From Desulfobaccales bacterium (GTDB lineage: Bacteria; Desulfobacterota; Desulfobaccia; Desulfobaccales; 0-14-0-80-60-11): DNA of 42,684 nucleotides. Below are positions 2,655-35,321 of this stretch, piece after piece (positions within the stretch are counted from its first letter, which is position 1; every line of letters starts with the position of its first letter). The notes beneath the pieces are model-generated. The model had not been told where the DNA came from and made no database searches. It saw nothing but the letters and a program-made list of their open reading frames with translations. A program made the position numbers and the translations under genes. The stretch is taken from NCBI GenBank assembly GCA_030694005.1, contig JAUXZG010000102.1:1-42684 (forward strand). Direction: 5' to 3'.

Positions 2655-3587
2655 ATGGAAGAGGGTTTTAGCCCCCGGGAAAAGCTGGTGGGTTTCTTTA
2701 TCCTGGTGATGATCATCATTACCATGGTGACCCTGCTGGTGATCGGCCAGGGGAAAGGCTGGTTCCAATCGCAAAAAACTTATCTGATCAAATTTAAGCA
2801 GGGTTATAACCTCCGCCAGGGTTCCCTGGTAAAGATGTTTAATACCGAGATCGGCAAAGTCAGCAATATGCGCATCAGTCGCGTGATGGATGAAAATCAG
2901 GTGGAAATCAGCATCAAGGTCCTGGCGGAATACTTCGATCTCATTCGCCAGGATTCCATCGCCGAAGTCGTGAGCCCCACCCTGATCGGCAGCGAATATG
3001 TGGAGATCAGCCCCGGCTCTTCCGGTTATCCCCCCATCCAGGAGTACGGCACCATTCCTTCCCAGGCCAGAAAAAGCATGACCGAATCCATCGCCGAATT
3101 TTTCAATGAGGAACGCATTCAGCAATTTCAGACTATTTTGACTAATTTTACCCAGTTCAGCGAGCAATTGAAAAACCACGAAAAGGCCTGGCTGAGTTCG
3201 GTAAAACATGTGGATGAGATCATGGTGGCCCTGCTTGAGGCCCAGGGAACCATGGGGCAACTAATCATGAAGCAGGATTTTTATAACCGCCTGAACGAGA
3301 GTTTGGCACACTTAGACAAACTCCTGAAAGAGGCGCAAAATATCGCCGGCGATATCAAGCCCGCGGCCCAGGCCGTGGCCCAGGAGGTGGAGACCCTGAA
3401 AGGTATTCTGGCGGACATCAAGGAGGGGGCCCAGGAATTCCCCGGCCTGATGGAGTCGGCCGGAGAAGCCACCCGGGGAGGCAAAGAGGTGGTGGACGCC
3501 GTCAAGGCCAACCCGCTGATTCGTATGACCCTGCCCAAGGGCAAACCCAGCCGGGCCATTCAGGTGGAACCCCGACATGTCCCCTAA
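2655..3587 (+). CDS. MCE/MlaD-family lipid-transport protein
   Basis: A 310-residue periplasmic lipid-carrier subunit anchored in the inner membrane. MCE proteins form hexameric rings that pass phospholipids or other hydrophobic molecules between membranes. Residues about 10-31 form one TM helix (GFFILVMIIITMVTLL). The MCE domain spans about 40-118, including FKQGYNLRQGSLVKM, IGKV and the closing SPTLIGSEYVEISPG. The rest is predicted helical (about 135-290) with amphipathic repeats. The start follows an AAGAGGAG site. Its last 11 bases overlap the TPR lipoprotein gene, so the two are translationally coupled. The MlaE-like permease and MlaF-like partner are encoded convergently at 4682-6480 rather than in the same operon. 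Confidence 0.85.
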   Translation: MEEGFSPREKLVGFFILVMIIITMVTLLVIGQGKGWFQSQKTYLIKFKQGYNLRQGSLVKMFNTEIGKVSNMRISRVMDENQVEISIKVLAEYFDLIRQDSIAEVVSPTLIGSEYVEISPGSSGYPPIQEYGTIPSQARKSMTESIAEFFNEERIQQFQTILTNFTQFSEQLKNHEKAWLSSVKHVDEIMVALLEAQGTMGQLIMKQDFYNRLNESLAHLDKLLKEAQNIAGDIKPAAQAVAQEVETLKGILADIKEGAQEFPGLMESAGEATRGGKEVVDAVKANPLIRMTLPKGKPSRAIQVEPRHVP

Positions 3588-4488
3588 CCTTGGGTGGATG
3601 CTGGGGCTTTTGCTGTTGGCCCTGATAATCTGCGGCTGCTCAGCCCGGCAGGGTCCCTATGGGCAGCAGGTGCAGCGGGTCACCGATCTTTCCCTGCAGG
3701 GAGAACAGTGGATCCTTAAAGGAGATTTAAAAAGGGCTGACCGGGACTTTTCCCGGGCCTTGGAGCTGAGCCGGGCCGTGGACTACCCCCGGGGGGTAGC
3801 CCAGCACCTCAACAATTTAGGCGCCGTGGCCCTGGAACAAGGGGACCTAAAAAAGGCCGAAAGTCTATTCATGCAAGCCTGGGACCTGAACCAGGACCTC
3901 AATGATTGGGCCGAAGCCAGCACCAACCAGGCCAACCTGGCCACGGTGGCTCAGAAGGCCAAAGATTTAGGAAAGGCCGAGCAACATTTGCGCGCCGCCC
4001 AGGACGCGGCCCAAAAGTCCAAATCCAGGGCGGCCTTGGGCCAGGTGCTTTGTCGCTGGGGCTCCTTTTATCTGGATCAAAACGATCTCCCGGCTGCCCG
4101 GCAATTTCTTACGCAGGCCCAACCCCTGGCCGCCACTCCGGCCCTGAAGGGGAACCTCTACCACCAATGGGGCAGGTTATACCTGGCCCAGGGAGACACC
4201 TCAGCGGCTGCCGAAAATTTTACCAAAGCCCTAAACGCCGATCGCGAGGTCCTGGACCGGGCGGCCATGGCCGCGGACCTGTTTTCTCTGGGGGAGACCT
4301 ATCAGGCGGGGGGGGAGTGGCCCCGGGCCTTCTATTATTATGGCCGCGCCTTTGATGTTTACGCCGCCCTGGGGAAAAAGTCGCCCCTCAAGGAGTGCTT
4401 AAACCGGCTGCGGGAAGTCAACACCCAGGGCCATCTCGGCCAGTCTCTGGAGAGGTTCGAAAAACCCCCGCAACTCCCTTCTCCCTGA
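3577..4488 (+). CDS. TPR-repeat lipoprotein
   Basis: A 303-residue exported lipoprotein. The N-terminus has a hydrophobic signal (LGLLLLALII) ending in the lipobox I-C-G-C, with the lipidated Cys at residue 21. The remainder is a chain of about six TPR-like helical pairs (for example QHLNNLGAVALEQGDLKKAE and LYHQWGRLYLAQGD), a protein-binding scaffold. It overlaps the MCE gene by 11 bases, which suggests it works with the MCE ring, perhaps as a periplasmic or outer-membrane docking partner. MCE systems of other bacteria also use accessory lipoproteins. The exact role is unknown. Confidence 0.8.
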   Translation: MSPNLGWMLGLLLLALIICGCSARQGPYGQQVQRVTDLSLQGEQWILKGDLKRADRDFSRALELSRAVDYPRGVAQHLNNLGAVALEQGDLKKAESLFMQAWDLNQDLNDWAEASTNQANLATVAQKAKDLGKAEQHLRAAQDAAQKSKSRAALGQVLCRWGSFYLDQNDLPAARQFLTQAQPLAATPALKGNLYHQWGRLYLAQGDTSAAAENFTKALNADREVLDRAAMAADLFSLGETYQAGGEWPRAFYYYGRAFDVYAALGKKSPLKECLNRLREVNTQGHLGQSLERFEKPPQLPSP

Positions 4489-4608
4489 TTATCTGGGAGA
4501 AAAATATATCCCCCCGCGCCAAAGTCCCCCCAACCATCCCCAGTAAATTCTTTCTTCCGCCCAGGAACCCGATACCAGGTTAAGACCTCTGCAAAAGTTA
4601 TACATCAG

Positions 4609-4639
4609 AAAAAAGTAGGGTGCGCATTGCGCACCCTAC
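4609..4639 (-). terminator. Intrinsic terminator between convergent MCE-related genes
   Basis: A perfect palindrome with 12-bp arms (4615-4626 and 4628-4639, core GGGTGCGCA) is followed on the minus strand by six T (complement of A4609-A4614). It should stop transcription from the MlaF-like gene, and its stem could also act from the plus side. The GTAGGGTGCGCA palindrome is also a widespread bacterial repeat sequence. Confidence 0.65.
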
Positions 4640-4681
4640 ATTGACTCAGTTATAAAAATGTTACTGAGGGGCCGTATCCTT

Positions 4682-5404
4682 TCATAACAAAGACAGAAAG
4701 GCGGTCAAAGGCTGTTCTTTCTGCTCCAGGAATCGGCTTTCTTCTAAATGGCCGGCCTGCAGCCTGAGAAGCCGGTGGGCCAAGGGGTGAAAGGCCTTCA
4801 GGGAGCGGCCCATGATGATGGCCGCGCGGTCTTGCTCCTCCAGATAATTCTTCAGCCACGGGAAAACCATCTTATAAGTTTCCCCGGCTCTCAGAGGGCC
4901 TTCCAGGGCCGCCAGGATTAATTCCGGCCCCTTGACCAATTCCCGAGCCCAAAGGGCCCTGAAATAAACGGCTTCCGGCACTTGCGGCGGGAAGCGGGAC
5001 AGATAGGGACCTAAACCCAAAAATTCTAGCAACGCCCCATGTTGGCGGGAAACTTCCCATACCGTGCAGTCCTGATAATAGCAGGGACCCAGGGCGATGT
5101 TCTCCATCAAAGTGAGGCGGTGCAAAAGAACCTGCCGGGGAGTAATATAGGCAATCTGCCGGCGCAGGTGGTAAAGTTCAGACCTGGGCGCCTTGGCGGT
5201 GTCCTTCCCCCAATGCCGCACCCGGCCCCCCGCCGGGGCGCGCAGGGTGGCGGCCACGCTGAGCAGGGCTTCGCTCTCGGCCAGGTCCACTCCTTCAATT
5301 AACAGGACTTCCTTTAACCCCAGATTCAGGTCAAAGGGCGCCGGCCAGCTTAAAGGATGCTCCGGCAGCGTTACTTGCTTAAAGATGAGGCTGTGACGCA
5401 GCAT
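4682..5404 (-). CDS. MlaF-like ABC subunit with all ATPase motifs lost
   Basis: A 240-residue protein with the length and segment order of an ABC nucleotide-binding domain of the MlaF type, but without its catalytic residues. Where Walker A (GxxGxGKST) is expected, residues 37-45 read EGVDLAESE. The Q-loop region is ITPRQVLLHRLTLMENI. At the signature LSGGxxxR it has QVPEAVYFR (141-149), then ALWARELVKGPELILAALEG, so Walker B LLLDEPT has become LILAALEG. The H-loop VTHD has become IMGRS (198-202). The frame is open and compositionally like its neighbours, so it looks selected rather than decayed. It probably plays a structural role with MlaE. A hairpin at 5525-5548 separates it from mlaE. The fold assignment is by motif alignment only. 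Confidence 0.7.
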   Translation of the reverse strand: MLRHSLIFKQVTLPEHPLSWPAPFDLNLGLKEVLLIEGVDLAESEALLSVAATLRAPAGGRVRHWGKDTAKAPRSELYHLRRQIAYITPRQVLLHRLTLMENIALGPCYYQDCTVWEVSRQHGALLEFLGLGPYLSRFPPQVPEAVYFRALWARELVKGPELILAALEGPLRAGETYKMVFPWLKNYLEEQDRAAIIMGRSLKAFHPLAHRLLRLQAGHLEESRFLEQKEQPLTAFLSLL

Positions 5405-5428
5405 GGCTTGGTCAATTTGTATGAAGAT

Positions 5429-5459
5429 AGCTTTCAGCAGTCAGCTTTCAGCTTTCAGC
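5429..5459. repeat. Short tandem AGCTTTCAGC repeats
   Basis: Three near copies of AGCTTTCAGC lie just upstream of the MlaF-like gene. They are short and probably neutral, but they sit in the expected promoter region of that gene. Confidence 0.4.
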
Positions 5460-5524
5460 AAAGATTAAGGGTTGGCGAAGACAACTAAAATGTAGGGTAG
5501 GCACAGCCCACCATACAGTCTTAA

Positions 5525-5548
5525 AGAACAGCCGGGGGCGGCTGTTCT
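5525..5548 (-). terminator. Hairpin between mlaE-like and mlaF-like genes
   Basis: A 9-bp inverted repeat (AGAACAGCC / GGCTGTTCT, 6-base loop) lies 95 bases after the MlaE stop on the minus strand and is followed by TTTAAG. It may attenuate or end the long upstream operon, which would make the MlaF-like gene separately expressed. The U-tract is weak. Confidence 0.4.
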
Positions 5549-5643
5549 AAATTTCCATGTTTCGTTGTGCCCCCCGGGCATGATTGTTAGCCTGAAAGCT
5601 CACGGGATTTCCTTGAGTTGACCCTTCTTAAAAATGGCGCCCC

Positions 5644-6480
5644 TCACAGGTAGTAGGCCATGGTCAGGATGATATCCACGACCGCCAAGAGCACCAGGGA
5701 GGTGAGCGCCCCCTTGGAAGTATAGAGGGCGATTTCTCCTAAGTCTTTCTCGGCCTTCAGACCGAAGTAAATAGAAACCGAGGCAATGACCATGCCGAAG
5801 GCGGTGCACTTGGCAAAACCCACGGCCAAATCAAGCCATTGCAGCGCATGGATAAACGACAGCCAGAATTTCCCCCAAAACACGTCGGCAAACATTTGCG
5901 CAAAGAGAAACCCACCTAACACCGCCGAAAAGGTGCAAAGCACATATAAGGCCATCAGGCTGATGGTCAGGGCCCAAAGGCGCGGCACCCCCAGATACCG
6001 GTAAGGGTCAATGCCCATCATTTTCAAGGCCTCAACCTCCCGGGTCACGGACAAAGTGCCCAGCTCCGCGGTTATGGCGGACCCGGAGCGGAGCAGGACG
6101 AAAAACGCGGCCCACACCGGCCCCACCTCCCGCACCACGATGGTCACCAACAGCCAGCCGACAAACTCCTCGCCCTGGACCTTGACCAACTGCTGGGTGG
6201 CATGGACAATCACCAACAGGCCCAACATGAGGGCCGAAAAGACCAGCACATGGGCCCCCTGGATGGCGGTAAAATAAACCTGCTGGGCCGTCTCCCGCAA
6301 AATTAGGCGTAGGCCGACGGCGCTGGCAAAGGTGGTCAACAGCAGGCGGTAAAACAGGGCGCAGATGTCCAAAAGATTAGCGGCATAGCTTGAGATCGCC
6401 TCGGCAATTTTAGTTACGGCCTGCCCCAGAAGAAGTCCCAGGACCCTGATCTGCCTGGATATGAGGTTACCGGCTTTCAT
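5644..6480 (-). CDS. MlaE-family lipid ABC transporter permease
   Basis: A 278-residue inner-membrane permease of the MlaE/YrbE family, which sits under an MCE ring and couples lipid movement to an ATPase. The family signature is well kept: REVGPVWAAFF, RSGSAITAELGTLSVT, EVEALKMMGIDPYRYLGVPR, followed by four or so hydrophobic helices. The start was placed at the ATG at 6480 rather than the longer upstream frame. That ATG overlaps the TGA of the sensor-like gene as ATGA, and the protein from here has the usual family length. The ATGA junction implies coupled translation with the sensor. Its expected ATPase partner in this window (4682-5404) lacks catalytic motifs, so an ATPase encoded elsewhere or ATP-independent action must be considered. 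Confidence 0.85.
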   Translation of the reverse strand: MKAGNLISRQIRVLGLLLGQAVTKIAEAISSYAANLLDICALFYRLLLTTFASAVGLRLILRETAQQVYFTAIQGAHVLVFSALMLGLLVIVHATQQLVKVQGEEFVGWLLVTIVVREVGPVWAAFFVLLRSGSAITAELGTLSVTREVEALKMMGIDPYRYLGVPRLWALTISLMALYVLCTFSAVLGGFLFAQMFADVFWGKFWLSFIHALQWLDLAVGFAKCTAFGMVIASVSIYFGLKAEKDLGEIALYTSKGALTSLVLLAVVDIILTMAYYL

Positions 6481-8063
6481 GCGGTGCCGGAAGCGGTGGG
6501 CAATTTCAGTTGGAAGATCAAGCCGCCCCGCGGCTGGGGCTGGGCCTTGAGGCTCCCGCCGTGCTGGGCGGCAATGGCGGCAGTTAGGACCGGCCCCAGG
6601 CTGCCCTGGATTTCCCCGGACCCCTTGAAGGGCTCCAGTAGCTGCCGACATTCTTCAGGAGAAACTTGAGGGCCGGAAAACTCTAGTGATATCTGGACCC
6701 AGGCCGGGGAGGCGGCACTGGCCCTGAAGAATAATTCTCCCTCAGGCTCCACCGAGCCCCCGGCATATTCCAGTAGATAAAGGATGGCCATCTTAAGAGC
6801 CGCAGGCGAGCCCCACACCGGGGGCAAGGTGTCAATTTCCTGGACGAGCTGCACCTGTTCGGGGAGTCCCAAGGTTATTAGACGCCAGGCGCTTTCCAGA
6901 ACCGGGGTCAAATCCACCGCCTGCCAGCCCGTCTCGGCTGATGGGGATAAGCGTTGCCAATCGGCAAACGCCGTGTGCAGCCTCTCTAAAATTCCTTCTG
7001 CTAATTTGCCCTCCTGGGCGCGCCTCTGGTCGCTAAAGGCCAAAAGCGCGGGAAGCGCCCGGGCCACCACCCTCCCCCAACAGGCCTGGCCTTCCTCGGC
7101 AATGAGCCGCCGGCCGATCCTGGGGATGGCGCTTCCCAAACGAATCAGGCTGTGTTGTAAGTCCGCCACTTCGGCCTGGCCCCGGGGGTCCACCCGCTTT
7201 AAATTGTCCAGCCATAAGTCAAAATCCCGGGGCTGGGCGGTTTTCAGGTCCCCGGCCACGGAACTGAGGTTTTTCAAGGGTTCGGTAAGATTGCGCACCC
7301 AGAGATAGATCAGGCCGACGGCTATCAGGCCGGCTACGGTGAGGCTCAGGATAATTTCCAGCCAGATAGCCTTACGGACCCGGGCCTGCTCCTGGCTCTG
7401 AAACAGCAGCATCTGACTCATCCCGGAGGTATCTATGCCAATCTTGGCCACTCCCCAATAAATGGCCCCTTCATCCGGCAGCAGCACATGCACCGGCATA
7501 TAGCGCAAGAGCATTTCCCCTTCTTTTTTGGGACCGCGATTGACCGACTCCAGGAGGGTTTTGTCCACCATTTGCCGGTTATTGATGCTGTCCAAGAGTT
7601 CTTTTTCCAACCCGGAGAATTTCTTTAAGCTTTTCTGGGGGCCGGCCATGGGCTTCAGTTCCGGGGCTTCCCGACGATAAAACAGATAAGTGAGGTGCTG
7701 CCCCTGAGCATCCCCGGGAGTGCGGATGAGCTCCATGCCCTCGATGATTTCGTTGAAGGTGACCTTCTGCCACAGGAGATTTTTGATGTACCGGTCTATG
7801 TCCCGGTCAACCTCCGGGGTCACCGTAAGTAAATCTTTCAACTGGGAAAATTCCAGAACCATGAGCCGGGAAATAGTGGTGGCCTCCACCTCTTTTTCTT
7901 CTTTCATGGTTCGGATGCTGCGGTCCAGGAGGCCGTCCAGGGTAATATTGAGCAGAGGGAAAAATAGCAGAATAACACAGGCGCATAAGAGAAAAGTGGC
8001 TCCCCCCAAGAACAGGAGCCGGGACCTGAGGGAATACGGGAGGAAAGGTAATTTTTCAGGCAT
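6477..8063 (-). CDS. Two-TM HAMP sensor with degenerate histidine-kinase core
   Basis: A 528-residue membrane sensor. TM1 is at about residues 14-38, a periplasmic domain of about 195 residues follows, and TM2 is at about 233-256, then a HAMP linker. The cytoplasmic half resembles NtrY-type kinases but is stripped of catalysis. The dimerisation helix WGRVVARALPALLAFSD aligns where WxxVARxxAHEIKNPL is expected, without the phospho-accepting His. The N-box reads LKMAILYLLEYAGGS with Tyr in place of the key Asn. The G1 box reads EFSGPQVSPE, and G2 keeps only GSLGPVLTAAIAAQHGG. It is therefore likely a pseudokinase that transmits signals by conformation. It starts 5 bases after the binding-lipoprotein stop and overlaps mlaE by 4 bases. 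Confidence 0.75.
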   Translation of the reverse strand: MPEKLPFLPYSLRSRLLFLGGATFLLCACVILLFFPLLNITLDGLLDRSIRTMKEEKEVEATTISRLMVLEFSQLKDLLTVTPEVDRDIDRYIKNLLWQKVTFNEIIEGMELIRTPGDAQGQHLTYLFYRREAPELKPMAGPQKSLKKFSGLEKELLDSINNRQMVDKTLLESVNRGPKKEGEMLLRYMPVHVLLPDEGAIYWGVAKIGIDTSGMSQMLLFQSQEQARVRKAIWLEIILSLTVAGLIAVGLIYLWVRNLTEPLKNLSSVAGDLKTAQPRDFDLWLDNLKRVDPRGQAEVADLQHSLIRLGSAIPRIGRRLIAEEGQACWGRVVARALPALLAFSDQRRAQEGKLAEGILERLHTAFADWQRLSPSAETGWQAVDLTPVLESAWRLITLGLPEQVQLVQEIDTLPPVWGSPAALKMAILYLLEYAGGSVEPEGELFFRASAASPAWVQISLEFSGPQVSPEECRQLLEPFKGSGEIQGSLGPVLTAAIAAQHGGSLKAQPQPRGGLIFQLKLPTASGTA

Positions 8064-8068
8064 GTTCT

Positions 8069-9412
8069 TTATAGGCCCCCGGCTTCTTTAAGCTCATTAA
8101 TCGCCGCCTCTATGGCCGCTTCCGGGGACCGCTGCCCATAGAGCGCTTCCCCCAGATATTTTTCCAACACATTATTGAGCCGCCGGCTTTGGGGTCGGGG
8201 CCGCAATACCATGTCAGCGGAGGCGAAGGTCTCCTGGTAAACCTGCAAGACCTCCTTATTGGTCACTTTTTTAAGGGCGCTTTTTAAAGCCGGCACCTGA
8301 CCCAGAGTCTCCGCGGCCAAAACCTGAAACTGCTCGTCCGCCACCAGACTGATAAACTTTTTGGCCTTGTCGATGACCTGGGGGTTGGTCACCGCAAACC
8401 GGTTTACGCCCCAGGCAAAAGAGCCGATGTTGGAGTAGCGGTGAGCCTGGCCGGCCTGGCAGGGGATGGGCGCCACCCCGATCTGGCTCATGTCCGTAAG
8501 GCGCCCAGGACCATTTCCTTCTCTTTTGAGGATCATCTCCTTTAAATCCTGCAGGCGGGTGTTCCAGTTAATCATGAACAGGGCCTCGCCCTGGTAGAAA
8601 GCCCGCCGCAAGCTCAGGGGAGGCTCGAATTGTTTTAAATCTTTGGCCGCCGGGACGACCGTCCCCTGCATGGCGCGGAGGTCGCTGAGCGCGGCGACGG
8701 CCGCGGCCACATTGTCCTTTTGCTGCAGCACCAGTCGGTTTTCCTCATCTAAGATGCGGCCGCCATAGCCCCAAAATATGGGATAAAAGTCGTTCACAAA
8801 ATTGGTCATGTGAAAGACCAGGCCATATTTTAACGACCGCTCCTGGGCCAGGACCTTCCGGCAAATGGCCTTCAACTCCTCCCAGTTGCGGGGTGGGGCC
8901 AGTTGGTAACGCTTGAGCAAGTCCCGACGGTAAAAGAGGATATTGCCTTTGATGTAAGTGGGCACGGCCACCAATTCCTTGGCCGGCCGCCCCCGCCCCC
9001 TAGACGACGCTACGGAAAAAGCCTCCGCCACTGCCGGCGTCAGTTCTGCCTTGGAGAAGACCTGGGTGCGTTCCAACTCATAAAGCCACCCGGCCATCCC
9101 ATAACGCTGCGCCCAGGGGGCATCCAACAGCAAGACCACCGGAATTTTGCTTTCCGTGGACAGCCCCAACACAAACGGTTCATAGGGCAAAAGGGATTGC
9201 GGAACCAGCAACCCCTTGAAATACCGGTCAAAATCATCATAGGCCTTGGTTTTGCCCTGCTTCGCCAAAAGACTGATCAACTCCCGGGTGGGGGCATCAA
9301 AGGTATAAGTGAGGGTCTGACGGGAGGGGGCTTCCGCAGGAGAGCCGCAGCTCAGGCAGCCAAAGAGAAGAAGAATAGCTAATAAGCCGGTTATTTTGTT
9401 GCCGAAGTTCAT
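8069..9412 (-). CDS. Extracellular solute-binding lipoprotein, family 1 (MalE-like)
   Basis: A 447-residue periplasmic binding protein of the type used by carbohydrate ABC importers. The signal peptide ends in a lipobox around LLFGC (Cys19). Family features include AVPTYIKGNILFYRRDLL, the PRNWEELKAICRKVL motif, MFINWN-like ALFMINWN and a late SNIGSFAWGVNRFA segment. No matching sugar permease or ATPase lies nearby. It begins within the MFS gene (ATGA overlap) and precedes the HAMP sensor by 5 bases, so it may present a ligand to the sensor's periplasmic domain rather than feed an importer. The ligand is unknown. Confidence 0.8.
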   Translation of the reverse strand: MNFGNKITGLLAILLLFGCLSCGSPAEAPSRQTLTYTFDAPTRELISLLAKQGKTKAYDDFDRYFKGLLVPQSLLPYEPFVLGLSTESKIPVVLLLDAPWAQRYGMAGWLYELERTQVFSKAELTPAVAEAFSVASSRGRGRPAKELVAVPTYIKGNILFYRRDLLKRYQLAPPRNWEELKAICRKVLAQERSLKYGLVFHMTNFVNDFYPIFWGYGGRILDEENRLVLQQKDNVAAAVAALSDLRAMQGTVVPAAKDLKQFEPPLSLRRAFYQGEALFMINWNTRLQDLKEMILKREGNGPGRLTDMSQIGVAPIPCQAGQAHRYSNIGSFAWGVNRFAVTNPQVIDKAKKFISLVADEQFQVLAAETLGQVPALKSALKKVTNKEVLQVYQETFASADMVLRPRPQSRRLNNVLEKYLGEALYGQRSPEAAIEAAINELKEAGGL

Positions 9413-10764
9413 CTAAATGGCGCCCCGCCTGGGCGAAATTGCCCAGGGGGTATGATCCCCTGGGGTTCGTCCCCGAAAAGCCCCGCAAGTTTAAGCCGGT
9501 ATTTCTCCCGCTTTAAGGGGATTAGAAAAACCAGGCAGGCCAAAAGGCCCACTCCTTCCAACAGAAATACCCAACCATAAGCCCCTTGAACGGTTCCCGA
9601 GACCTTGAACATCTGGTCTTTAAGAAGCCCCCCGGTCATTTCCCCGGCCGCCAGAGCCAGGCCGCTCACCAAATTCCACAAGCCCATGAAGATGCCGCTC
9701 ATGGCCGGATGGGCCATGCTCATGGTCAGGTGGGAAAGGCCCACATTGTATAAACCCCGGGACAACCCCAAAAACCACAGGGCGTAAATGCCCCAGGTGG
9801 GATTCGGCTTAAACGAAGTCATACTCAAGACCGCAAAGGCCAGGGCGCCGATTACCAGACTGACGACTAAGACGGCTTTGTCCCCCAAAGCTTTTTGCCT
9901 GCTCAGCAGGATATGTAATCCCACCATACCCAGGAGCACCCCATAGGACATATAAACTCCGAACTCGCTGGTCTGGGCCACCGGCAGCCCCAGCACCTCA
10001 CCGCCAAAAGCCGTCAGGATAAAAGTCTGGATGGCCAGGAAAAAGATGGTGCCCAGCAAAAAAGCAAAAAAAGCCAAACTCTGGCCATTCCCCCCTAAAA
10101 ACCTGAGGGTCTGCCAGAAATCCAACTGGCTCTTTTGCGGCGGACGATCGGCTCTTTGAGAGGGCTCAATGCCCCAGACCCCCCAAAGGGTGATAATTAC
10201 CGCCACTACCGTTATCAGCCCAAACATCCGGTCCAATCCTTTAGGGTCATAAACCGGGAAAAGCAGGCTGATGATGAAGGAGCCGGCAACAAACCCGGCG
10301 ATGGTCAGGATCCACAACAGGGTCAAGGCCGACCCTCTTTGGGCCTCCGGCAGGCGGTCCACCAACAAGGCGTTAATGGCGGTGGCCGAAACCGTGGTGC
10401 CTATGCCGAACAGCGAAAAAAGCACCACCCCTTCACCTAACAGCCCCAGGTTGTGGGGGTCCGCGCCCATCGCCTGGGCCCAAGAGGGAAAGAAGGGCAT
10501 TACGGCCACGCTTAACAACATCCCCCCCCAGATGTAAGGGGCGCGATGCCGCCCGGCCAGGGCATGGGCGTCGGAAAAATAGCCGGTAACCAGACCCATG
10601 GGGGTCATCACATGCTGAAAGGCAAAGCTGAAGGTGACCAGGGTGGCGGGCACCAACAGGTCCACGATCAGCACCCGGTTGAGAACATTGACCAACAATA
10701 CCACTAAAAGCGAGGTGGCGAATCTCACCAGCCCTAATTTCAGCACCAATCTGTTGGTAAACAT
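9409..10764 (-). CDS. PucC/BCD-family MFS transporter
   Basis: A protein of about 451 residues with twelve hydrophobic helices. The N-terminal half resembles the PucC/LhaA family, known from phototrophs and linked there to (bacterio)chlorophyll and light-harvesting assembly. The clues are LNRVLIVDLLVPATLV, GYFSDAHALAGRHRAPYIWGG and a later TLLWILTIAGFVAG segment. No pigment-synthesis genes are visible here, so the substrate in this organism is unknown. The start was placed at the ATG at 10764. A TTG at 10770 is in frame, and neither has a good ribosome site. The stop overlaps the binding-lipoprotein start by 4 bases, so this is the first gene of the sensor/mlaE operon. Confidence 0.7.
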   Translation of the reverse strand: MFTNRLVLKLGLVRFATSLLVVLLVNVLNRVLIVDLLVPATLVTFSFAFQHVMTPMGLVTGYFSDAHALAGRHRAPYIWGGMLLSVAVMPFFPSWAQAMGADPHNLGLLGEGVVLFSLFGIGTTVSATAINALLVDRLPEAQRGSALTLLWILTIAGFVAGSFIISLLFPVYDPKGLDRMFGLITVVAVIITLWGVWGIEPSQRADRPPQKSQLDFWQTLRFLGGNGQSLAFFAFLLGTIFFLAIQTFILTAFGGEVLGLPVAQTSEFGVYMSYGVLLGMVGLHILLSRQKALGDKAVLVVSLVIGALAFAVLSMTSFKPNPTWGIYALWFLGLSRGLYNVGLSHLTMSMAHPAMSGIFMGLWNLVSGLALAAGEMTGGLLKDQMFKVSGTVQGAYGWVFLLEGVGLLACLVFLIPLKREKYRLKLAGLFGDEPQGIIPPGQFRPGGAPFR

Positions 10765-10861
10765 GGCCAAAAAGGAGAATAAACCGGGTGCGGCGGAAAG
10801 TAAAGCCCGGCTAGCCCGGTACTTGGCTGAAGAAATGCGCGTAAGATACTAAGGTTTTAAA

Positions 10862-10985: not shown

Positions 10986-11996
10986 TTAGGACACCGTGCC
11001 ATATAGCTCCAGATAGGCCGCCACCATGCGCTCTAAGGAGAAATGCTGCTGCACCTGCTGCCGACACCGGTAGGGGTCCAGGCCGGCCAAAAGGGGGAGG
11101 CTGTCCCGCAACTGGTCATAAGAGTTCACCACCAACCCGGTTTCCCCGTGCACCACCACCTCGGGCACCGCACCCCGGCCGTAGGCCAGCACCGGGGTGC
11201 CGCAGGCCATGCCCTCCAGCATCACCAACCCGAAGGCCTCGTCCACCTCCAGGGGCAGCACCAGGGCTTGAGCCCTTTTGAGCAGATCCACCTTTTGGGA
11301 AAAATCCGCCGCCCCCAGATAAATAATCCGCTCGCCGTCCACAAAAGGGCGAATTTCCCGGTCAAAATAAGGCTGGTCCGGACCGAAGACCGGCCCGGCA
11401 ATAACCAGTTGTCTGCCGGTTTCCCGGGCCAGGCGGATGGCCGTATGCAGTCCCTTGTCGGGATAGATGCGCCCTAAGAATAAAAGAAAATCCTCTTTTT
11501 TTGCCTGGAAGGGATAGGCTTCCAGATCAAGACCGTGGGGAATCACCTGAAGGTTGGGGTGTCCCGCTAATTGTCGGCCCTGAAAAGCGCTCACCGCCAC
11601 CACCTGGGCCTCGGGAAACTTAAGGAGGTATTCACATTTTATGGGGCTGAGAGGGGTGTGCAGGGTAATTATTAGGGGGATGTCAGAAAGAGATAAGGCC
11701 CAAAAACCCGCGGCATTTTCCAGGTGAGAATGGATCACTCTCACCGGGTGAGCTTTAAGGTGAGCGAAGGCATAGGATAAGTGCAGATTTTCGGAAAACT
11801 TGTCCGGCGGCCAGAAAGAGTCGGGGAAAGGACCGAAGCAAGGAACCTTGAGGGTGGAATCCCGGGCGCTATAGAGGGCCACTTCCACCCCTTTAGCCTG
11901 TAAGCCGCGCACCAGCGCGGCCACCATCAACTCGGTGCCGCCGTAGGTTAAGGGGGGCACCGGAATCCAGGGCGGGGCGATCTGCGCCACCCGCAT
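10986..11996 (-). CDS. GT4-family glycosyltransferase
   Basis: A 336-residue GT-B fold glycosyltransferase of family 4, a retaining enzyme that uses nucleotide sugars. The N-terminal acceptor domain carries the loop PPLTYGGTELMVAALVRGL. The donor domain has FLGRIYPDKGLHTAI and the EX7E-type motif EAFGLVMLEGMACGTPVLAYG (the two Glu are in EAFGLVMLE), followed by GAVPEVV. The ATG at 11996 overlaps the stop of the preceding GT81-like gene by one base, behind AGGGA; a GTG three bases earlier is possible. It is the last gene of a three-gene glycosyltransferase operon. The acceptor is unknown. Confidence 0.85.
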   Translation of the reverse strand: MRVAQIAPPWIPVPPLTYGGTELMVAALVRGLQAKGVEVALYSARDSTLKVPCFGPFPDSFWPPDKFSENLHLSYAFAHLKAHPVRVIHSHLENAAGFWALSLSDIPLIITLHTPLSPIKCEYLLKFPEAQVVAVSAFQGRQLAGHPNLQVIPHGLDLEAYPFQAKKEDFLLFLGRIYPDKGLHTAIRLARETGRQLVIAGPVFGPDQPYFDREIRPFVDGERIIYLGAADFSQKVDLLKRAQALVLPLEVDEAFGLVMLEGMACGTPVLAYGRGAVPEVVVHGETGLVVNSYDQLRDSLPLLAGLDPYRCRQQVQQHFSLERMVAAYLELYGTVS

Positions 11997-13087
11997 CACT
12001 TCCCTCGCCGGCTCAACGCCGCCCGCACCTCAGGGCAAGACTTTAACGGCGGCAAGGTCTGGTCCCCCAGGGGCACCTCCAGCCATTTGGGCGCAGCTTT
12101 ATCACCCAACCCGGGGAGCGGGATGCTCAAGCTGGGCCTGGTTAACGGCCCGGGCTGCCACTTGAAGATGCCTGCCTGGCTCAAGACTTCTTCCAGGGTC
12201 TTAAAGACATTTCCCGCCATTTGGTCGAGACCTTTTTTAAGAGGGGTAGAGGTGAGAGGGGCGTGCCGATGGTCCATTTCCCCCATATATACCTGCACCA
12301 GGTGCGCCAGGTCAGGGGTGCCGGGCTGCAGTTGCAAATAATCCAGGGCAAAGGACAAAAGAATCATGGTTTCCACCCCATAGCCGCTCTGGAAGGCTAA
12401 AGAGGTCCAAAAATTTAAGGTCCCGGCTATCTCCCCGGACAGCAAATAGACCAATTTCTTCAGGGCCTGCACCCCCGGATGCGGACAGAGGGCCATAAGG
12501 GAGCGCAACATGGCGTTCAGCCGGCCGCCCCGGGGACGGTGATACACGACTTTGGCCGCCTCCACGGCGCGAAACCAGAGAATCGCCCCCACCGGATCCA
12601 CCACCCACTGGGGCTTGAAGTAAGCAGGTCGGATGTCGGCATCGATAAATTGGACTACCGCCCGGGGATGAGTCACCTGTTCGGCGACGATTAGATGGTG
12701 GACAAAGGCCCGCATCACCGCCCCTTTGCCCAGGGGGGCCTGCTGCTGATCCGGCGGCAGACACTCTTGAGCCTTAAAAATCCTTACCCCGGCAAAGGCC
12801 TCGGCCACTTGCCTTAATTTGCCCGGATGTGTGCCCCCAAAGGCTATCCAGACCTGATCTATGAGCCTGCCCTGAAACGGCTTCAGGGTGGCCAACAACA
12901 CCGCCAGATTGTCGGCCTCCCGGGGCGTGGCCACAGGAAACACCACCTGAACCGGAACCTGCTCCCTTTGCTTAACAGCAATCAGGTCGTCCAGACTTAA
13001 GCTTCCCGCCAGGAGCAAACCCAAGGGGGGGAGCGACGCTTCCCGGCCAAACTCAGACGGCTTAATGACTTCCGGGGGGCCTGCCAA
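11996..13087 (-). CDS. GT81-like glycosyltransferase (glucosyl-3-phosphoglycerate synthase type)
   Basis: A 363-residue GT-A glycosyltransferase. It resembles GpgS-type enzymes, which transfer a sugar from a nucleotide donor to 3-phosphoglycerate. Shared points are GKGAVMRAF (residues about 118-126), the metal-binding DxD in QFIDADIRPAYFKPQ, the stretch YHRPRGGRLNAML, a SGEIAGTLNF segment that aligns with the LAGEYAGRR region, then QSGYGVETMIL and VYMGEMDHRHAPL. It starts with TTG two bases after the previous gene's TAG and ends in the GT4 start. No phosphatase to finish glucosylglycerate is nearby. The exact donor and acceptor are not settled by sequence. Confidence 0.7.
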   Translation of the reverse strand: MAGPPEVIKPSEFGREASLPPLGLLLAGSLSLDDLIAVKQREQVPVQVVFPVATPREADNLAVLLATLKPFQGRLIDQVWIAFGGTHPGKLRQVAEAFAGVRIFKAQECLPPDQQQAPLGKGAVMRAFVHHLIVAEQVTHPRAVVQFIDADIRPAYFKPQWVVDPVGAILWFRAVEAAKVVYHRPRGGRLNAMLRSLMALCPHPGVQALKKLVYLLSGEIAGTLNFWTSLAFQSGYGVETMILLSFALDYLQLQPGTPDLAHLVQVYMGEMDHRHAPLTSTPLKKGLDQMAGNVFKTLEEVLSQAGIFKWQPGPLTRPSLSIPLPGLGDKAAPKWLEVPLGDQTLPPLKSCPEVRAALSRRGK

Positions 13088-13088
13088 G

Positions 13089-14303
13089 CTACCCCCAAAC
13101 GGCCTTTCGGGCCCGGGCCGCCACCCGGGGCTGGGCCAGCCACTCCATCAGCGCCCGCCAGGCGGCCACCGTGTGCAAGTATTCCTGAAAAACCTGCCTG
13201 CCGGTCTGGGTCAGTCGCTCCATCAAGACCAGATTTTTGAGCGTCTGGCGAGCTCCCTCCAGGTCCCCGGCGCTGAGATACTCTAGGGCCAAAAGGGTGT
13301 GGCTTTGATAGGCCCTGAGCTCCAGATCGTCCTCTAAAAAATTGCCGGGGTAAGGTTTGAGTTCTTCCGGGGTTACCTTAGCCATCTGCGGCCGGGGCTC
13401 TTGCTGGCGCAGCTTCAGGCGGGTGTAAGCGAAGCGCCCCAGGTCCTGCCGAAGCCTCAGCCAGGTAGGGTGAGGTTTGGCCGGCGGCAGGTGGACGATG
13501 CTTAAAGTGTTATCCAAAAAAAAGGGGGTCTTAAACATGCGGGCATTAATGACATAATCCACATCCTCCCCCCGGGTGATGGCCGGATCAAAGGGAATTT
13601 GCCTGAATAGTTTGGCGCTCAGGGCCAAATTGCCTCCAAAACCCAAGGGGGTGGGCTTCAGGCGGGGACCGGCCAGGGCCAGTTCAGTTAACGCCTCATT
13701 GAGCCAGCGAAACTTGGGCCAATAAGAGGTCCAGGGGGCCGAGGGTTCGGGCAGTAGGACGCCACCCCTCTCATCCCGATAAATCCCGGCCAACCCAAAA
13801 ACCGGATGCGCCTCGCCGAGACTGGCAAAATCCTCCGCTATTTTAGCCAAAAAATCCGCCTCAGCGATGACCTCGTCATCGTCTAAACTGACCAGCACCT
13901 CCGTTTCCCAGATGTTGGCCAGGATCAAGGTGAGATTGCGGATCTGGGCATAGCCGGCCAAAGAAACCAAGAAGGCCCAGCCCTCTTTCCCCTGCTCTCG
14001 GAAAAATTCCCACAAAGATTTCAGGTGCGAGGCCGAAAAAAAGACCACCTCATAGGGCAGCGGTGGAGAGTGAATGATCTCCTGGACGCGCCTTTCCACC
14101 TCTGCCTCAAGCGCAGAGGCGGTGGCCGCGGCCACCACCCCCACTTTAACCCCGGGGGTGACCAACGGGATCAGGCTTTCCAGGGTGCGTCTCAGGGTGC
14201 CCGGGGTGTTCAGCGGGGTGGGATGATCAAAAATCACCTCTTCCCGGCCCTGAGCCCCCGCATAGGTCCAATAAGTGGGGATTGCCAGCCAGTAACCCCG
14301 CAT
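13089..14303 (-). CDS. GT2-like GT-A glycosyltransferase
   Basis: A 404-residue protein with a GT-A nucleotide-sugar domain. Evidence is the metal site region VSLDDDEVIAEADFL, a large acceptor loop with GFGGNLALS, and GEDVDYVINARMF, whose acidic pair may be the catalytic base region. The C-terminal 120 residues are helical and not recognised. It opens the three-gene glycosyltransferase operon and ends only one base before the TTG of the GT81-like gene. The family call rests on these motifs. A role in making a compatible solute, a lipopolysaccharide part or another glycoconjugate cannot be told apart from sequence alone. Confidence 0.65.
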   Translation of the reverse strand: MRGYWLAIPTYWTYAGAQGREEVIFDHPTPLNTPGTLRRTLESLIPLVTPGVKVGVVAAATASALEAEVERRVQEIIHSPPLPYEVVFFSASHLKSLWEFFREQGKEGWAFLVSLAGYAQIRNLTLILANIWETEVLVSLDDDEVIAEADFLAKIAEDFASLGEAHPVFGLAGIYRDERGGVLLPEPSAPWTSYWPKFRWLNEALTELALAGPRLKPTPLGFGGNLALSAKLFRQIPFDPAITRGEDVDYVINARMFKTPFFLDNTLSIVHLPPAKPHPTWLRLRQDLGRFAYTRLKLRQQEPRPQMAKVTPEELKPYPGNFLEDDLELRAYQSHTLLALEYLSAGDLEGARQTLKNLVLMERLTQTGRQVFQEYLHTVAAWRALMEWLAQPRVAARARKAVWG

Positions 14304-15019: not shown

Positions 15020-15831
15020 ATGGAAATCGGTTATCCCTGTATCAATAGAAGCCTTAAATGTAAGGGGAATCACACCTTTCGGCTCAACTCCTATTCAGCA
15101 GAGCGTTTGCTGGAAACGGTGAAAATCAATTTAGAGTGCCTCTTACAAATACTCGAATTTAATGTCTCCCACAATCTCCTATTTTTTAGAATATCCTCTA
15201 ACCTGGTGCCATTTGCGTCGCATCCCATCTGCACTTTTAACTGGCAAGATTTTTTCAAAGACGATTTTAAGAAAATCGGTTCGTTTATTAAAAGTCACGA
15301 TCTCAGAATATCCCTGCATCCGGATCAATTTGTGCTAATAAACTCTTTAAAAGAGAAGGTTCTTGACAGCAGCCTAAAAGAACTCGTCTATCATGCTGAG
15401 ATCTTAGATTTATTGCAGCTTGACAGTTCTGCCAAAATCCAGATCCATGCCGGCGGCATTTACGGCAACAAGAAAGAGAGTCTGGAAAGATTTATCAGTA
15501 ACTATCATAAGTTGGATGAATCGATTAAAAAACGCCTGGTCATTGAAAATGACGATACCAATTACTCCCTAAAAGATTGTTTATTTATCCATTTGTTAGG
15601 ACCTGGGGAGAGCACAACGGTCTGCCCATGGTGGATTATAGTTCTCAGTGGCCGGGAAAACGCCCCGGGTCCCATGCGCAATCTCTGGATATGGCGCTGT
15701 TTATAGAATTCCTGGCGCCCTCCCGGCCCTTTGATTTTGATCTTATGCTGGAAATCAAGGACAAGGAAAGAAGTTCCCTCCTGGCCTTGGAAGTCTTAAA
15801 AAATGACCCGCGATTTAACAAGCTGAGTTAA
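15020..15831 (+). pseudogene. uvsE: uvsE (UV damage endonuclease) broken by an internal deletion
   Basis: The N-terminal 190 codons encode a UVDE-type TIM-barrel endonuclease: MEIGYPCINRSLKCKGNHTF, FRISSNLVPFASHP, ISLHPDQFV, IHAGGIYGNKKES, VIENDDTNYSLKDC. At about 15590 the frame breaks. The C-terminal part resumes one frame over with VRTWGEHNGLPMVDYSSQ, GSHAQSLD and LMLEIKDKERS. The stretch normally between these, which holds the FDxHH metal ligands, is missing; I estimate 30-45 residues. The enzyme, which nicks DNA 5' of UV photoproducts, would be inactive. The remnant is clearly more A+T-rich than its neighbours, which suggests acquisition by transfer. Confidence 0.85.
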
Positions 15832-31648: not shown

Positions 31649-34393
31649 CTACCCCTCCCCGTGGAGAATCAGCCCGGCCCAGAAATAGGGGTGCGGTTCT
31701 TTGACCCGCACCGCCTGGCGGGCCTCTTTAAGGGCCTCCAGTTTGGGTTTGCCTGCCTTCACGGCCTGGTAAAAGGTATGGTAAAGCTTCATGGACTCGT
31801 CCACGGGAATGTTCCACAGGGCCACCATGACGCTTCTGGCCCCGGCTTGCTGGAAGGCCCGGGCAAAGTTCAAGACGCCTTCGCCCTGCATCACCCGGCC
31901 CACCCCGGTCATGCAGGCCGCCAGGGTGACCACGTCGGCGTTCAGTTTAAAGTTCATGACTTCGCTGAAAGTCAAGAAGCCGTCGTCCTGGGATTTGGTA
32001 TCCACCTGGGACAAGACCAGCACCGGTTCCTGGAGCCCGGCCAGGTTGTTGGCCAGAAAACCGTGGGTGCCGAAGAAAAAATAGCGGTATTTTTCCAGGG
32101 GGGCCTGGCGCAGCCGGGCCTTGGTGGCCAGCACGTCCAGAAGGACCTGGGGGGGCTGAGGCGCGACCCCAAAAAGGCTCGCCAGGTCCTCCACCGTCTT
32201 TCTGGTTTCCGGCAGGGGCGGGAACTGGAGCTGGACCCCCTTCAGCGTGATGGCCGCCATGGTCATGGCCTTCTCGGGACCGGCGTGTCGCAGCTCCCCG
32301 GCCTTGCCCTGGCCCGCCTTATAAGCCAGATAACGGGGGCTATTTTTCTCATAAATGCAGTCCCCCAGGGCAAACAGCGGCATGGAGGCCTGGGCCAGAC
32401 CCAGGTGGCGGTTTAGGGCCAGGATGGCGGCGGACTGACTGTAGGTGACGGGCCAGCGGTCTCCCACCAGGGCGCTTTTGGCCCAATCCGGCCCGCTCTG
32501 CACCACCAGGGCCTCAAAGGGAAAGGCCCCCAACACCCCGTCCGGCACGATGATCAGCCGGGTGCCCGGGGCCACCCCGGCCAGGGCCGGGGCCAGCAGT
32601 TCCTGGTATAAGGCGGCGGCCTCGGCTAGGGAGAACTTTTCCAAGTCCTCTCTTCTAAGGACGCTTTGCCTAAAAGGGGCCAGCAACGCGGCCAGGCGTT
32701 TTTCCAGGGCTTCCTGCCCCAGGGGCAGGCGGAAGACCTGGGTGCGGCCCCCGGGCTCCACCTTAAAGAGGTAACTTTCCTTGTCCCCCAGGGAGTACTC
32801 CAGGAGCACTTCGCCGGGTTTCAAGGGCAGTTCCTGGGCCTTAAAGGGCCGGGGGTAATGCAGGGCCGCGTAGCGGGGCGCCAGGCGGCGCAGCTCGGCG
32901 AGCAAATCCTCCTGTTCCTTTTGCAGGGCCTCCTGCCGCTGCTGAAACTCGGCCACGACTCGGCCTCTCTTTGCCTGGGGCAGGAAGGAGGCCTCTCTTG
33001 TGGCTTCCAGCTCTTGTAAGTTTTCCTGGAGGCGTTTTTCCCGGTTCGCCAGGTCCGGCGGAATCTGCGGGCTGACGGCGCGGCCGGACCCGGCCACCAT
33101 GGCCTCCAGGAGGGCCCGGCCCTTGATGGACTCGGCAAAATAAAAGGCCGCGGCCGCCGGGTCCGGACCATAGTTTTGCAGGGCCGGAGTTAGGGGTTTT
33201 TTCTGGAGGCCCATCTCGGCCAGGACGGCCACCAGACCCTGGTAGGAGCGGAAATAGCCGCTGAACACCCCAGCTTCAAAAAAGCTGGCGCGTTCCCCCG
33301 GGGTGCGGGCCCTGAGGTCCTCGGTGGCCTGAATGGCCTTGAGAAAGGACGCCGCGGCCTCCTCCTGGCGCCCCAGGCCCTTTAGGGCCAGGCCTTGTTG
33401 GGTATAGTACTGCGCCTGATATTGCGGCCTGGTCGAAGGTATGGGGGCGATGGTGGGCAGGAGTTCCAGGGCCTGGGGCAAACGGCCGGTGGCCAGATAA
33501 AGTTCCACCAACCCCTGCTCCCCCAGCTTGTGTTTGGCCCGGCGGAAACAGGACTCCGCCTGGCCGTAATCCTTCAAGGCCAGGTAGATGAAGCCTAAAT
33601 CTTTAAGGCTCTTGGCGGTCCGGCGGTGGTCCGGCCCCAGGGTCTTCTCATTGATCTGGACCGCCCTTTGGGCCAGAGGCAGGGCCTGGTCATACAGGCC
33701 CAGCTGGGCATAAAGCACCGCCAGGTCGCCCAGGCTGGCCGCGGTGGCCCGGTGTTCCGGCCCCAGAACTTTTTCTCTAATCCTCAGAGCCCGCTCGGTC
33801 AAGGGCCGGGCCTGGGCGTGAGCTCCCATCTGGGCATAGGCATAACCCAGAATGGCCAGGCTTTGCGCGGTATCCTGGTGTTCCGGGGCCAGGACTTTCT
33901 CCCTGATCGTTAAGGCGCGCTGGGCCAGGGGTAAACCCTCTTGAAAGTATCCCAGGAGAATATAAGTCCTTGCCAACCAGGCCAGGGTGGCGGCGGTCTC
34001 CGGCGCCTCGGGGCCCAGGGCCTTTTCCCTGATCTTCAAGGCCCGCTGGTACAAGGGTAAGGCCGGATACCAGTAATAGGCCTCATCATAAGCCCGGGCC
34101 ATGCGGTGGAAAGCGGCGGCGGTCTGGGGATGCTCGGGGCCAAAGGCCTTTTCCACCACTTCCTGGGCCTGGTCGCGCAACCGCAGGCCTTCCATGCCGT
34201 GGCCTTCATTGAACATCTTCATGGCCTCTTGGGTCAAAGCCCTGGCTTTGGCCAACTGCTCCTTCTGGGCCGGGGAGAGAGATTCCAGGCCCGGGTCGGC
34301 GTCCTCAGGTTTCTGGGCAGCCCAGCCGTGGGCCCCTAAGCAAAAAATGAGCAACAAACTAAGGCAGATGGAGACACGTCTGGACATACCCAC
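31649..34393 (-). CDS. Exported TPR-CHAT protease-like protein
   Basis: A 914-residue protein. It has a signal peptide (VSICLSLLLIFCLGAHGWAA) and about eight TPR units at residues 45-330 (repeats such as RALTIREKVLAPEHQDTAQSL). A long helical linker follows, then a C-terminal CHAT domain from about residue 600. CHAT domains are caspase/separase-like cysteine peptidases. The dyad is present: His in FFGTHGFLANN and Cys in TLAACMTGVGR, followed by EGVLNFARAFQQAGARSVMVALW and the terminal YFWAGLILHG. The signal peptide suggests action in the cell envelope. It is the last of three minus-strand genes with a FecR-like protein and a CHASE2-cyclase. Its substrate is unknown. Confidence 0.88.
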   Translation of the reverse strand: MGMSRRVSICLSLLLIFCLGAHGWAAQKPEDADPGLESLSPAQKEQLAKARALTQEAMKMFNEGHGMEGLRLRDQAQEVVEKAFGPEHPQTAAAFHRMARAYDEAYYWYPALPLYQRALKIREKALGPEAPETAATLAWLARTYILLGYFQEGLPLAQRALTIREKVLAPEHQDTAQSLAILGYAYAQMGAHAQARPLTERALRIREKVLGPEHRATAASLGDLAVLYAQLGLYDQALPLAQRAVQINEKTLGPDHRRTAKSLKDLGFIYLALKDYGQAESCFRRAKHKLGEQGLVELYLATGRLPQALELLPTIAPIPSTRPQYQAQYYTQQGLALKGLGRQEEAAASFLKAIQATEDLRARTPGERASFFEAGVFSGYFRSYQGLVAVLAEMGLQKKPLTPALQNYGPDPAAAAFYFAESIKGRALLEAMVAGSGRAVSPQIPPDLANREKRLQENLQELEATREASFLPQAKRGRVVAEFQQRQEALQKEQEDLLAELRRLAPRYAALHYPRPFKAQELPLKPGEVLLEYSLGDKESYLFKVEPGGRTQVFRLPLGQEALEKRLAALLAPFRQSVLRREDLEKFSLAEAAALYQELLAPALAGVAPGTRLIIVPDGVLGAFPFEALVVQSGPDWAKSALVGDRWPVTYSQSAAILALNRHLGLAQASMPLFALGDCIYEKNSPRYLAYKAGQGKAGELRHAGPEKAMTMAAITLKGVQLQFPPLPETRKTVEDLASLFGVAPQPPQVLLDVLATKARLRQAPLEKYRYFFFGTHGFLANNLAGLQEPVLVLSQVDTKSQDDGFLTFSEVMNFKLNADVVTLAACMTGVGRVMQGEGVLNFARAFQQAGARSVMVALWNIPVDESMKLYHTFYQAVKAGKPKLEALKEARQAVRVKEPHPYFWAGLILHGEG

Positions 34394-34438
34394 CTCCCGT
34401 CATGGTAAATAGCAGGATGTAACAATCCCCTGAAATCT

Positions 34439-35248
34439 TCACGGGGAAGCAGGCCCACCAGGGGGTGCAGGTTGGGACCTCGCCCAGTTTTTCAGGTCCT
34501 TGAGGACCGGGTCGCCGGGCTTTTTGGTCAACATGGTGTCGATGACCTTGATCATCTGCTGGTACTGGCCGTAATCCGCCAGAACCCCGAGGAAATATAA
34601 TTCCGGAGTGAAGTCGTCCTCCGGCGTCTTCTTTCGCAGGCTTTGATAAATCTTTTCGGCTTCCTTGATTTCTTTCCGTTCTTCCTGGCTGAGCGGCGGC
34701 CTGCTTGCCACAGCCGGCGGCCTGGGTGCCTCCTCTGACGCCCTGGCTACCACCTCCCCCGGCTCCCCCACAGCCTTCGGCTTGGCGGCCATGAGCGGGA
34801 TGACTCCCGAATAACGCATGCTGGAGCGGGGCAGAGGCATCCCCGGAGCCAGCATCCGTTTGCTTACTTTGGTGGGCAGGACCTGCACTTCCGGTTGGGA
34901 CGGGGGCCCTTTTTCCCCTTCCCCTCGACTTTCCCCCAGGCCGGCAATAAAAGTTACCGGCCCCCTCCAGGTCTCCTGGCGGCCGTTGTCAAAATAAACC
35001 AGTTGCACCAGGCTTTCCGGCGGCAGCTTGAAATGATCCCCCTGGCGAATTTTCATGAAGGCCTGGACCCGCGCCGGTTGTTTCTGGTCGGTTTGATTAA
35101 AGTAGGTGGCCTCTCCGGAAAGTTTGGTCACTAATCCCACATCCACCGGAGAAGTTAGGACCTCCACGGCCCCCAACAGGAGCCCGCCCATCAGCAGGCA
35201 GATACCAAAAACCTTAAGTGCTTGAGCCTTTATGCTTATGGAATTCAT
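34439..35248 (-). CDS. FecR-like periplasmic protein with single TM anchor
   Basis: A 269-residue protein with an N-terminal TM or signal segment (KVFGICLLMGGLLLGAVEVL). Residues about 35-110 form a FecR-like beta domain: GLVTKLSGEATYF, FMKIRQGDHFKLPPESLVQLVYFDNGRQETW. A Pro/Ala-rich linker follows, and a C-terminal helical repeat region (about 195-260, EAEKIYQSLRKK and YFLGVLADYGQYQQM) looks TPR-like. It lies 46 bases from the CHAT gene and 73 bases from the cyclase gene, so one operon is likely. It may link the membrane cyclase to the exported CHAT protein. The family call rests on the FecR-like pattern only. Confidence 0.6.
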   Translation of the reverse strand: MNSISIKAQALKVFGICLLMGGLLLGAVEVLTSPVDVGLVTKLSGEATYFNQTDQKQPARVQAFMKIRQGDHFKLPPESLVQLVYFDNGRQETWRGPVTFIAGLGESRGEGEKGPPSQPEVQVLPTKVSKRMLAPGMPLPRSSMRYSGVIPLMAAKPKAVGEPGEVVARASEEAPRPPAVASRPPLSQEERKEIKEAEKIYQSLRKKTPEDDFTPELYFLGVLADYGQYQQMIKVIDTMLTKKPGDPVLKDLKNWARSQPAPPGGPASP

Positions 35249-35321
35249 CGCCAGTCCCTCCCAGTGATGCTAAAATGCTACCAAAATTGTGCCGATGTGA
35301 AAAGATGAAAGACCTGGGCCT

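Follow-up and report, generated by a model that had tools for sequence, protein, structure and literature searches.

The window analysed here, i.e. the whole stretch of 42,684 nucleotides, comes from a draft genome of 2.62 Mb with a completeness of 94.7%. It carries an MCE gene pair on one strand and a longer series of genes on the other:

2655–3587 (+): MCE (MlaD-domain) protein with one MCE domain and a helical C-terminal half (Pfam MlaD, 48.9 bits)
3577–4488 (+): TPR lipoprotein, partner of the MCE gene (Pfam TPR_12)
4615–4639 (−): terminator-like hairpin 3' of the ABC gene, an 11-pair stem with a TTTTTT tail (pattern match only)
4682–5404 (−): pseudo-ABC ATPase, a nucleotide-binding subunit that appears dead (motif losses; NBD fold in the AF2 model)
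5644–6480 (−): divergent MlaE permease; one conserved segment is expected to contain the coupling helix (Pfam MlaE, 176 bits)
6477–8063 (−): membrane-bound pseudo-histidine-kinase whose predicted periplasmic domain is conserved (boxes lost; kinase-like matches in sequence and fold)
8069–9412 (−): maltose/trehalose-type solute-binding lipoprotein (Pfam SBP_bac_8; MalE3 in the PDB, E 6.6e-28)
9409–10770 (−): PUCC-type MFS transporter (Pfam PUCC, 206 bits; orthologue alignment)
10986–11999 (−): GT4-type glycosyltransferase (Pfam Glycos_transf_1, 85 bits; conserved neighbour of the MFS gene)
11996–13087 (−): putative glycosyltransferase, distant from glucosyl-3-phosphoglycerate synthase (NCBIfam GpgS, 55 bits against a cut-off of 262; conserved DAD)
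13089–14303 (−): putative GT-A glycosyltransferase, without a Pfam family (conserved DDDE; orthologues 53–71% identical)

An earlier, sequence-only reading of this DNA had named the genes from the MCE protein to the MFS transporter. All of them are found where it placed them, and Pfam bears out their domains, with the exception of a HAMP domain in the sensor, for which no HAMP model matched at E ≤ 1. The MlaD, MlaE, SBP and PUCC assignments all exceed the Pfam cut-offs, for instance 176 bits against 22.5 for MlaE (PF02405) and 48.9 against 25.1 for MlaD (PF02470). The gene set of that reading was too small, as it missed the three glycosyltransferase-like genes upstream (10986–14303, minus strand), which in the relatives belong to this gene series too. 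The product of 13089–14303 has no confident match in Pfam or in a profile search of the PDB, and we infer that it is a glycosyltransferase. There is no ABC sugar permease adjoining the gene of the solute-binding lipoprotein. The tight junctions described earlier hold around the sensor, with overlaps of 4 nt between sensor and MlaE and between MFS and binding lipoprotein, and a gap of 5 nt between binding lipoprotein and sensor; the MCE and TPR genes overlap by 11 nt. They do not extend to the MlaE and ABC genes, which are 239 nt apart (5405–5643) as compared to mostly an overlap or a short gap in the relatives. This spacer carries a short CTGAAAGC-like repeat. The convergent layout is present here, but it is limited to the genus of the window and one further genome, G007, and had therefore been over-read.

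Two other regions of the window can be mentioned. A gene for a UvdE-type UV endonuclease at 15020–15706 (plus strand) is apparently broken by a frameshift or a small deletion, the coding sequence for its C-terminus seems to run on in a different frame at about 15560–15720, and the stretch has a lower GC content, 48.8%. At 31649–37187 on the minus strand there are a TPR/CHAT-like, a FecR-like and a CHASE2-type adenylate cyclase gene in series, all named by sequence reading alone.

The motifs of the ABC subunit are lost, as the sequence-only reading had claimed. In the window protein the Walker A position reads GVDLAESE, the signature VPEAV, the Walker B LILAALEG and the H-loop IMGRS. We aligned the window protein with 14 other copies (34–55% identical to it), for a total of 14 genomes, and the Walker A Lys, the Q-loop Gln, the signature and the Walker B Asp-Glu are missing in all 15. 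The sequences at these positions differ between the copies, e.g. GVDLAESE, GAGLAESL and GLDVRRAD at Walker A and VPEA, LPAD and LPSR in place of LSGG, and the Q-loop Gln is replaced by Pro. Only one of the 15 copies has a His at the H-loop position, that of G007 (LAGHS). None of the copies can then be counted as the ATPase of an MlaFEDB-type system, with Walker A, signature and Walker B, and to judge from these motifs the subunit is catalytically dead. Among 32 other MlaE loci of the order and its neighbours, all of them checked (30 first chosen by motifs, the other two cut by contig ends), the adjacent ATPase has an intact Walker A in every case, and the signature is present in all 30 that are not cut. 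Alignment with 30 intact MlaE-adjacent and 20 LolD-type ATPases ruled out misalignment as the cause of the motif loss. A pseudogene or an assembly error was likewise ruled out by the open frames and the identical losses in 14 genomes, of which one is closed (3,282,536 bp, matching D. acetoxidans). Since orthologues in 13 further genomes share the losses, they are not due to chance or to a local pseudogene. No description of a dead MlaF was found in the freely accessible literature.

Despite a weak Pfam score (13.6 bits to ABC_tran, below the cut-off of 25), the pseudo-ABC protein is predicted to have the NBD fold (AF2, pLDDT 87; Foldseek), and its model superimposes on E. coli MlaF (6xbd) with a TM score of 0.82 and an rmsd of 2.6 Å. 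The model is about equally near to LolD, MacB, MetN and FtsE, so the fold comparison is neutral on its ancestry. In a profile search against the PDB the protein comes out nearer to LolD, MetN and FtsE than to MlaF, whereas a profile-profile comparison with local families prefers MlaF (1.3e-23) over LolD (1.2e-16). With similar closeness in fold and disagreeing profiles, the label "MlaF-like" given to it earlier is not established, and an MlaF ancestry is unproven.

What the protein has conserved is of another kind. The stretch from the Q-loop to the ENI segment, which is the usual docking place of coupling helices and hence the predicted docking groove, is the most conserved part (97th percentile), while Walker A (24th percentile) and Walker B (31st) both fall under the median. 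MlaE is also conserved across 13 aligned proteins, including the segment REVEAL..MGIDPYR. The MlaE–MlaF contact of E. coli is formed by a coupling helix that lies between TM2 and TM3 (PMC7790496). The conservation of groove and segment would fit with continued docking of the two proteins.

The sensor has lost its motifs as well. In the window its H-box reads GRVVARALP, its N-box YLLEYA and its G1 box EFSGPQ, and in all 13 sensors aligned (the others 33–58% identical to that of the window) the phospho-accepting His, the N-box Asn, the G1 Asp and the G2 pattern are missing. The loss of the His, the Asn and the G1 motif, reported earlier for this one protein, is in other words general. By its boxes the sensor is catalytically dead, and yet the domain still aligns with the kinase core of ZraS (profile, E 1.3e-18) and falls just below the cut-off of HATPase_c (25.7 against 26.4 bits). 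The ZraS profile and the predicted structure both point to an HATPase-like fold joined to a membrane sensor part. The N-terminal half of the protein is well conserved and predicted to be largely periplasmic.

We searched 29 genomes of one order, including Desulfobacca, and the module was present in 14, seven of the 22 in the family of the window and all seven of the other family. The pseudo-ABC, the sensor and the divergent MlaE occur in the same 14 genomes, among them the cultured Desulfobacca acetoxidans. The MCE protein (orthologues 46–62% identical) and the GpgS-like enzyme are found in 13 of the 14, the exception being a genome that is 72% complete, and the TPR lipoprotein gene adjoins the MCE gene at every MCE locus read. 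No further carriers were found in the phylum: a profile of the N-terminal half of the sensor matched 10 of 395 genomes, all with the module, and a contig scan with the sensor gave two relatives, both from module genomes. The gene set is thus kept beyond the source strain, including parts that are not linked. The pseudo-ABC gene comes next after that of MlaE in 10 of 14 genomes (11 copies), in both families, and in four genomes of the genus Desulfobacca it is unlinked from the MlaE operon yet retained. The MCE and TPR genes form a separate locus in most genomes, and the most constant linkage is that of the three putative glycosyltransferases, MFS, SBP, sensor and MlaE, in this order. That the parts occur together without linkage argues for a shared role, although few events stand behind it: presence and absence are correlated with phylogeny, and on two single-gene trees a minimum of three gains or losses is needed. 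One draft genome (G017) has two pairs of MlaE and pseudo-ABC genes on separate contigs, L037 (G017:C127) and L041 (G017:C16); either a duplication or a mixed bin could account for them.

The open frames are under purifying selection, as had been suspected. Between close species pairs dN/dS was 0.26–0.53 for the pseudo-ABC, 0.13–0.35 for the sensor and 0.14–0.44 for MlaE, ratios that are rough since dS is small in part of the set. Intact MlaF gave 0.10–0.27 in the same species pairs, and as the values for the pseudo-ABC are about twice that, its constraint is the weaker one. The sequence-only reading had itself pointed out that close relatives with intact motifs in these genes and relaxed selection here, or a gene set confined to this strain, would speak against it; we found no relative with an intact version of either gene, and the check does not refute the reading.

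The module is a real, conserved and unusual variant of MCE transport with retained pseudo-enzymes. Starting from its gene content, the motif loss, the open frames under purifying selection and the joint presence and absence of its parts, our preferred explanation, to which we give about an even chance, is a clade-specific MCE transporter in which the pseudo-ATPase serves as a non-hydrolysing subunit of MlaE and the pseudo-histidine-kinase reads a periplasmic signal. Evolution would have kept the shape of both ATP-using proteins and removed their chemistry. The pseudo-ABC would be a structural or regulatory subunit, docked to the coupling helices of an MlaE dimer, and MlaE may hand a lipid to, or receive it from, the MCE ring and the TPR lipoprotein. 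The lipid is perhaps glycosylated by the three neighbouring enzymes, and the sugar-binding lipoprotein and the pseudo-histidine-kinase could pass the signal of a periplasmic ligand on to the complex through their conformation, without phosphotransfer. It is plausible that the substrate is a glycosylated lipid, or that the sugar is a signal. The sequence-only reading had proposed a lipid conduit that works independently of ATP, with the lipoprotein and the pseudokinase as its gate, and we keep this as a hypothesis. A more specific version, in which a glycosylated lipid is moved without ATP hydrolysis, the retired ABC protein is a fixed clamp on MlaE and the retired kinase gates it through the sugar-binding lipoprotein, seems unlikely to us. 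We place the non-hydrolysing subunit first among the explanations, since in 10 of 14 genomes the gene comes after that of a divergent MlaE of its own. The position of the pseudo-ABC gene outside the MlaE operon in the genus Desulfobacca counts against it, as do the weaker constraint on the pseudo-ABC, the conflicting signs of its ancestry as a partner of MlaE and the small number of independent presence/absence events.

Next in the ranking comes the possibility that an intact MlaF supplies MlaE of the module with power in trans, either by itself or paired with the pseudo-ABC in a heterodimer, in the manner of the shared MceG; we consider this doubtful, though it deserves to be weighed. The sequence-only reading had asked for a second intact mlaF, and there are in fact three intact MlaF-type ATPases in the genome of the window. 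A supply of ATP in trans is therefore possible, and that these ATPases could be available to MlaE of the module is a point against the subunit reading. A precedent exists in mycobacteria, where MceG is apparently common to all Mce transporters (PMC10517005), and MlaE retains the segment in which its coupling helix is expected. Against such a supply, no orphan intact MlaF stands out in this genome, since the best three matches each lie beside another MlaE gene of their own and the next one drops from 179 to 111 bits. Known ABC heterodimers with a degenerate site still bind ATP, unlike what is expected of the pseudo-ABC, which lacks Walker A as well. An intact series of MlaE, ATPase, MCE and TPR genes is present in the same genome, L051 (G000:C226, 1–3287). 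Its MCE and TPR proteins are 23% and 29% identical to the window pair, and it is likely a paralogous, powered version.

Third, and rather unlikely in our judgement, the pseudo-ABC may be a decoy that sits on the coupling helices of an MlaE and excludes a working ATPase, with the pseudo-sensor in control of its release. Mce1N, which binds YrbE1B and excludes MceG in mycobacteria (PMC10517005), is a precedent, and the decoy would explain a predicted docking groove that is conserved when catalysis is gone, in a genome with three intact MlaF. On the other hand, the pseudo-ABC gene mostly adjoins one dedicated, divergent MlaE, which suits a subunit better than a free regulator, and every intact MlaF adjoins its own MlaE. 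It is quite improbable that the MlaE-like and the ABC-like protein no longer take part in lipid transport and now serve signalling or glycoconjugate export with the MFS, the lipoprotein and the glycosyltransferases, as the constant linkage of those genes and the mostly separate MCE-TPR locus might suggest, because the MCE-TPR orthologues follow the module in 13 of 14 genomes, adjacent to it in two genera, and MlaE is far over its Pfam cut-off.

The energy source of MCE systems is still debated, and so is the direction of their lipid transport. A natural system in which MlaE is kept and paired with a conserved pseudo-ATPase sets the structural role of the NBD apart from its energetic one, and the module can be tested as it is present in a cultured type strain, Desulfobacca acetoxidans.

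The module resembles MlaFEDB in its MlaE permease, its MCE protein and an NBD-fold subunit whose gene usually adjoins that of MlaE. It differs in that the NBD appears catalytically dead, no MlaB-, MlaC- or MlaA-like gene was recognised in the cluster, and a sensor, an MFS transporter, a sugar-binding lipoprotein and putative glycosyltransferases are added. BceABS also combines a sensor kinase with an ABC transporter, and the models of the pseudo-ABC and the sensor both match Bce structures, but the likeness is at the fold level only, and BceA and BceS are active enzymes. PqiABC and LetAB are MCE systems with no known ATPase (PMC10897342). Their PqiA and LetA are of another fold, whereas the membrane partners here are, by Pfam, MlaE and a PUCC-type MFS transporter, with a pseudo-NBD retained. 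In mycobacterial Mce1, which also has an MlaE-family permease, the non-enzymatic Mce1N displaces the ATPase MceG from YrbE1B (PMC10517005), but that regulator is a membrane protein and not an NBD that has died, and MceG itself is active and, it appears, shared. DivL and other pseudo-histidine-kinases likewise have a kinase fold in a new role (PMC4211667), from which the sensor described here differs in being tied to a transporter, in a cluster without a response regulator or an active kinase.
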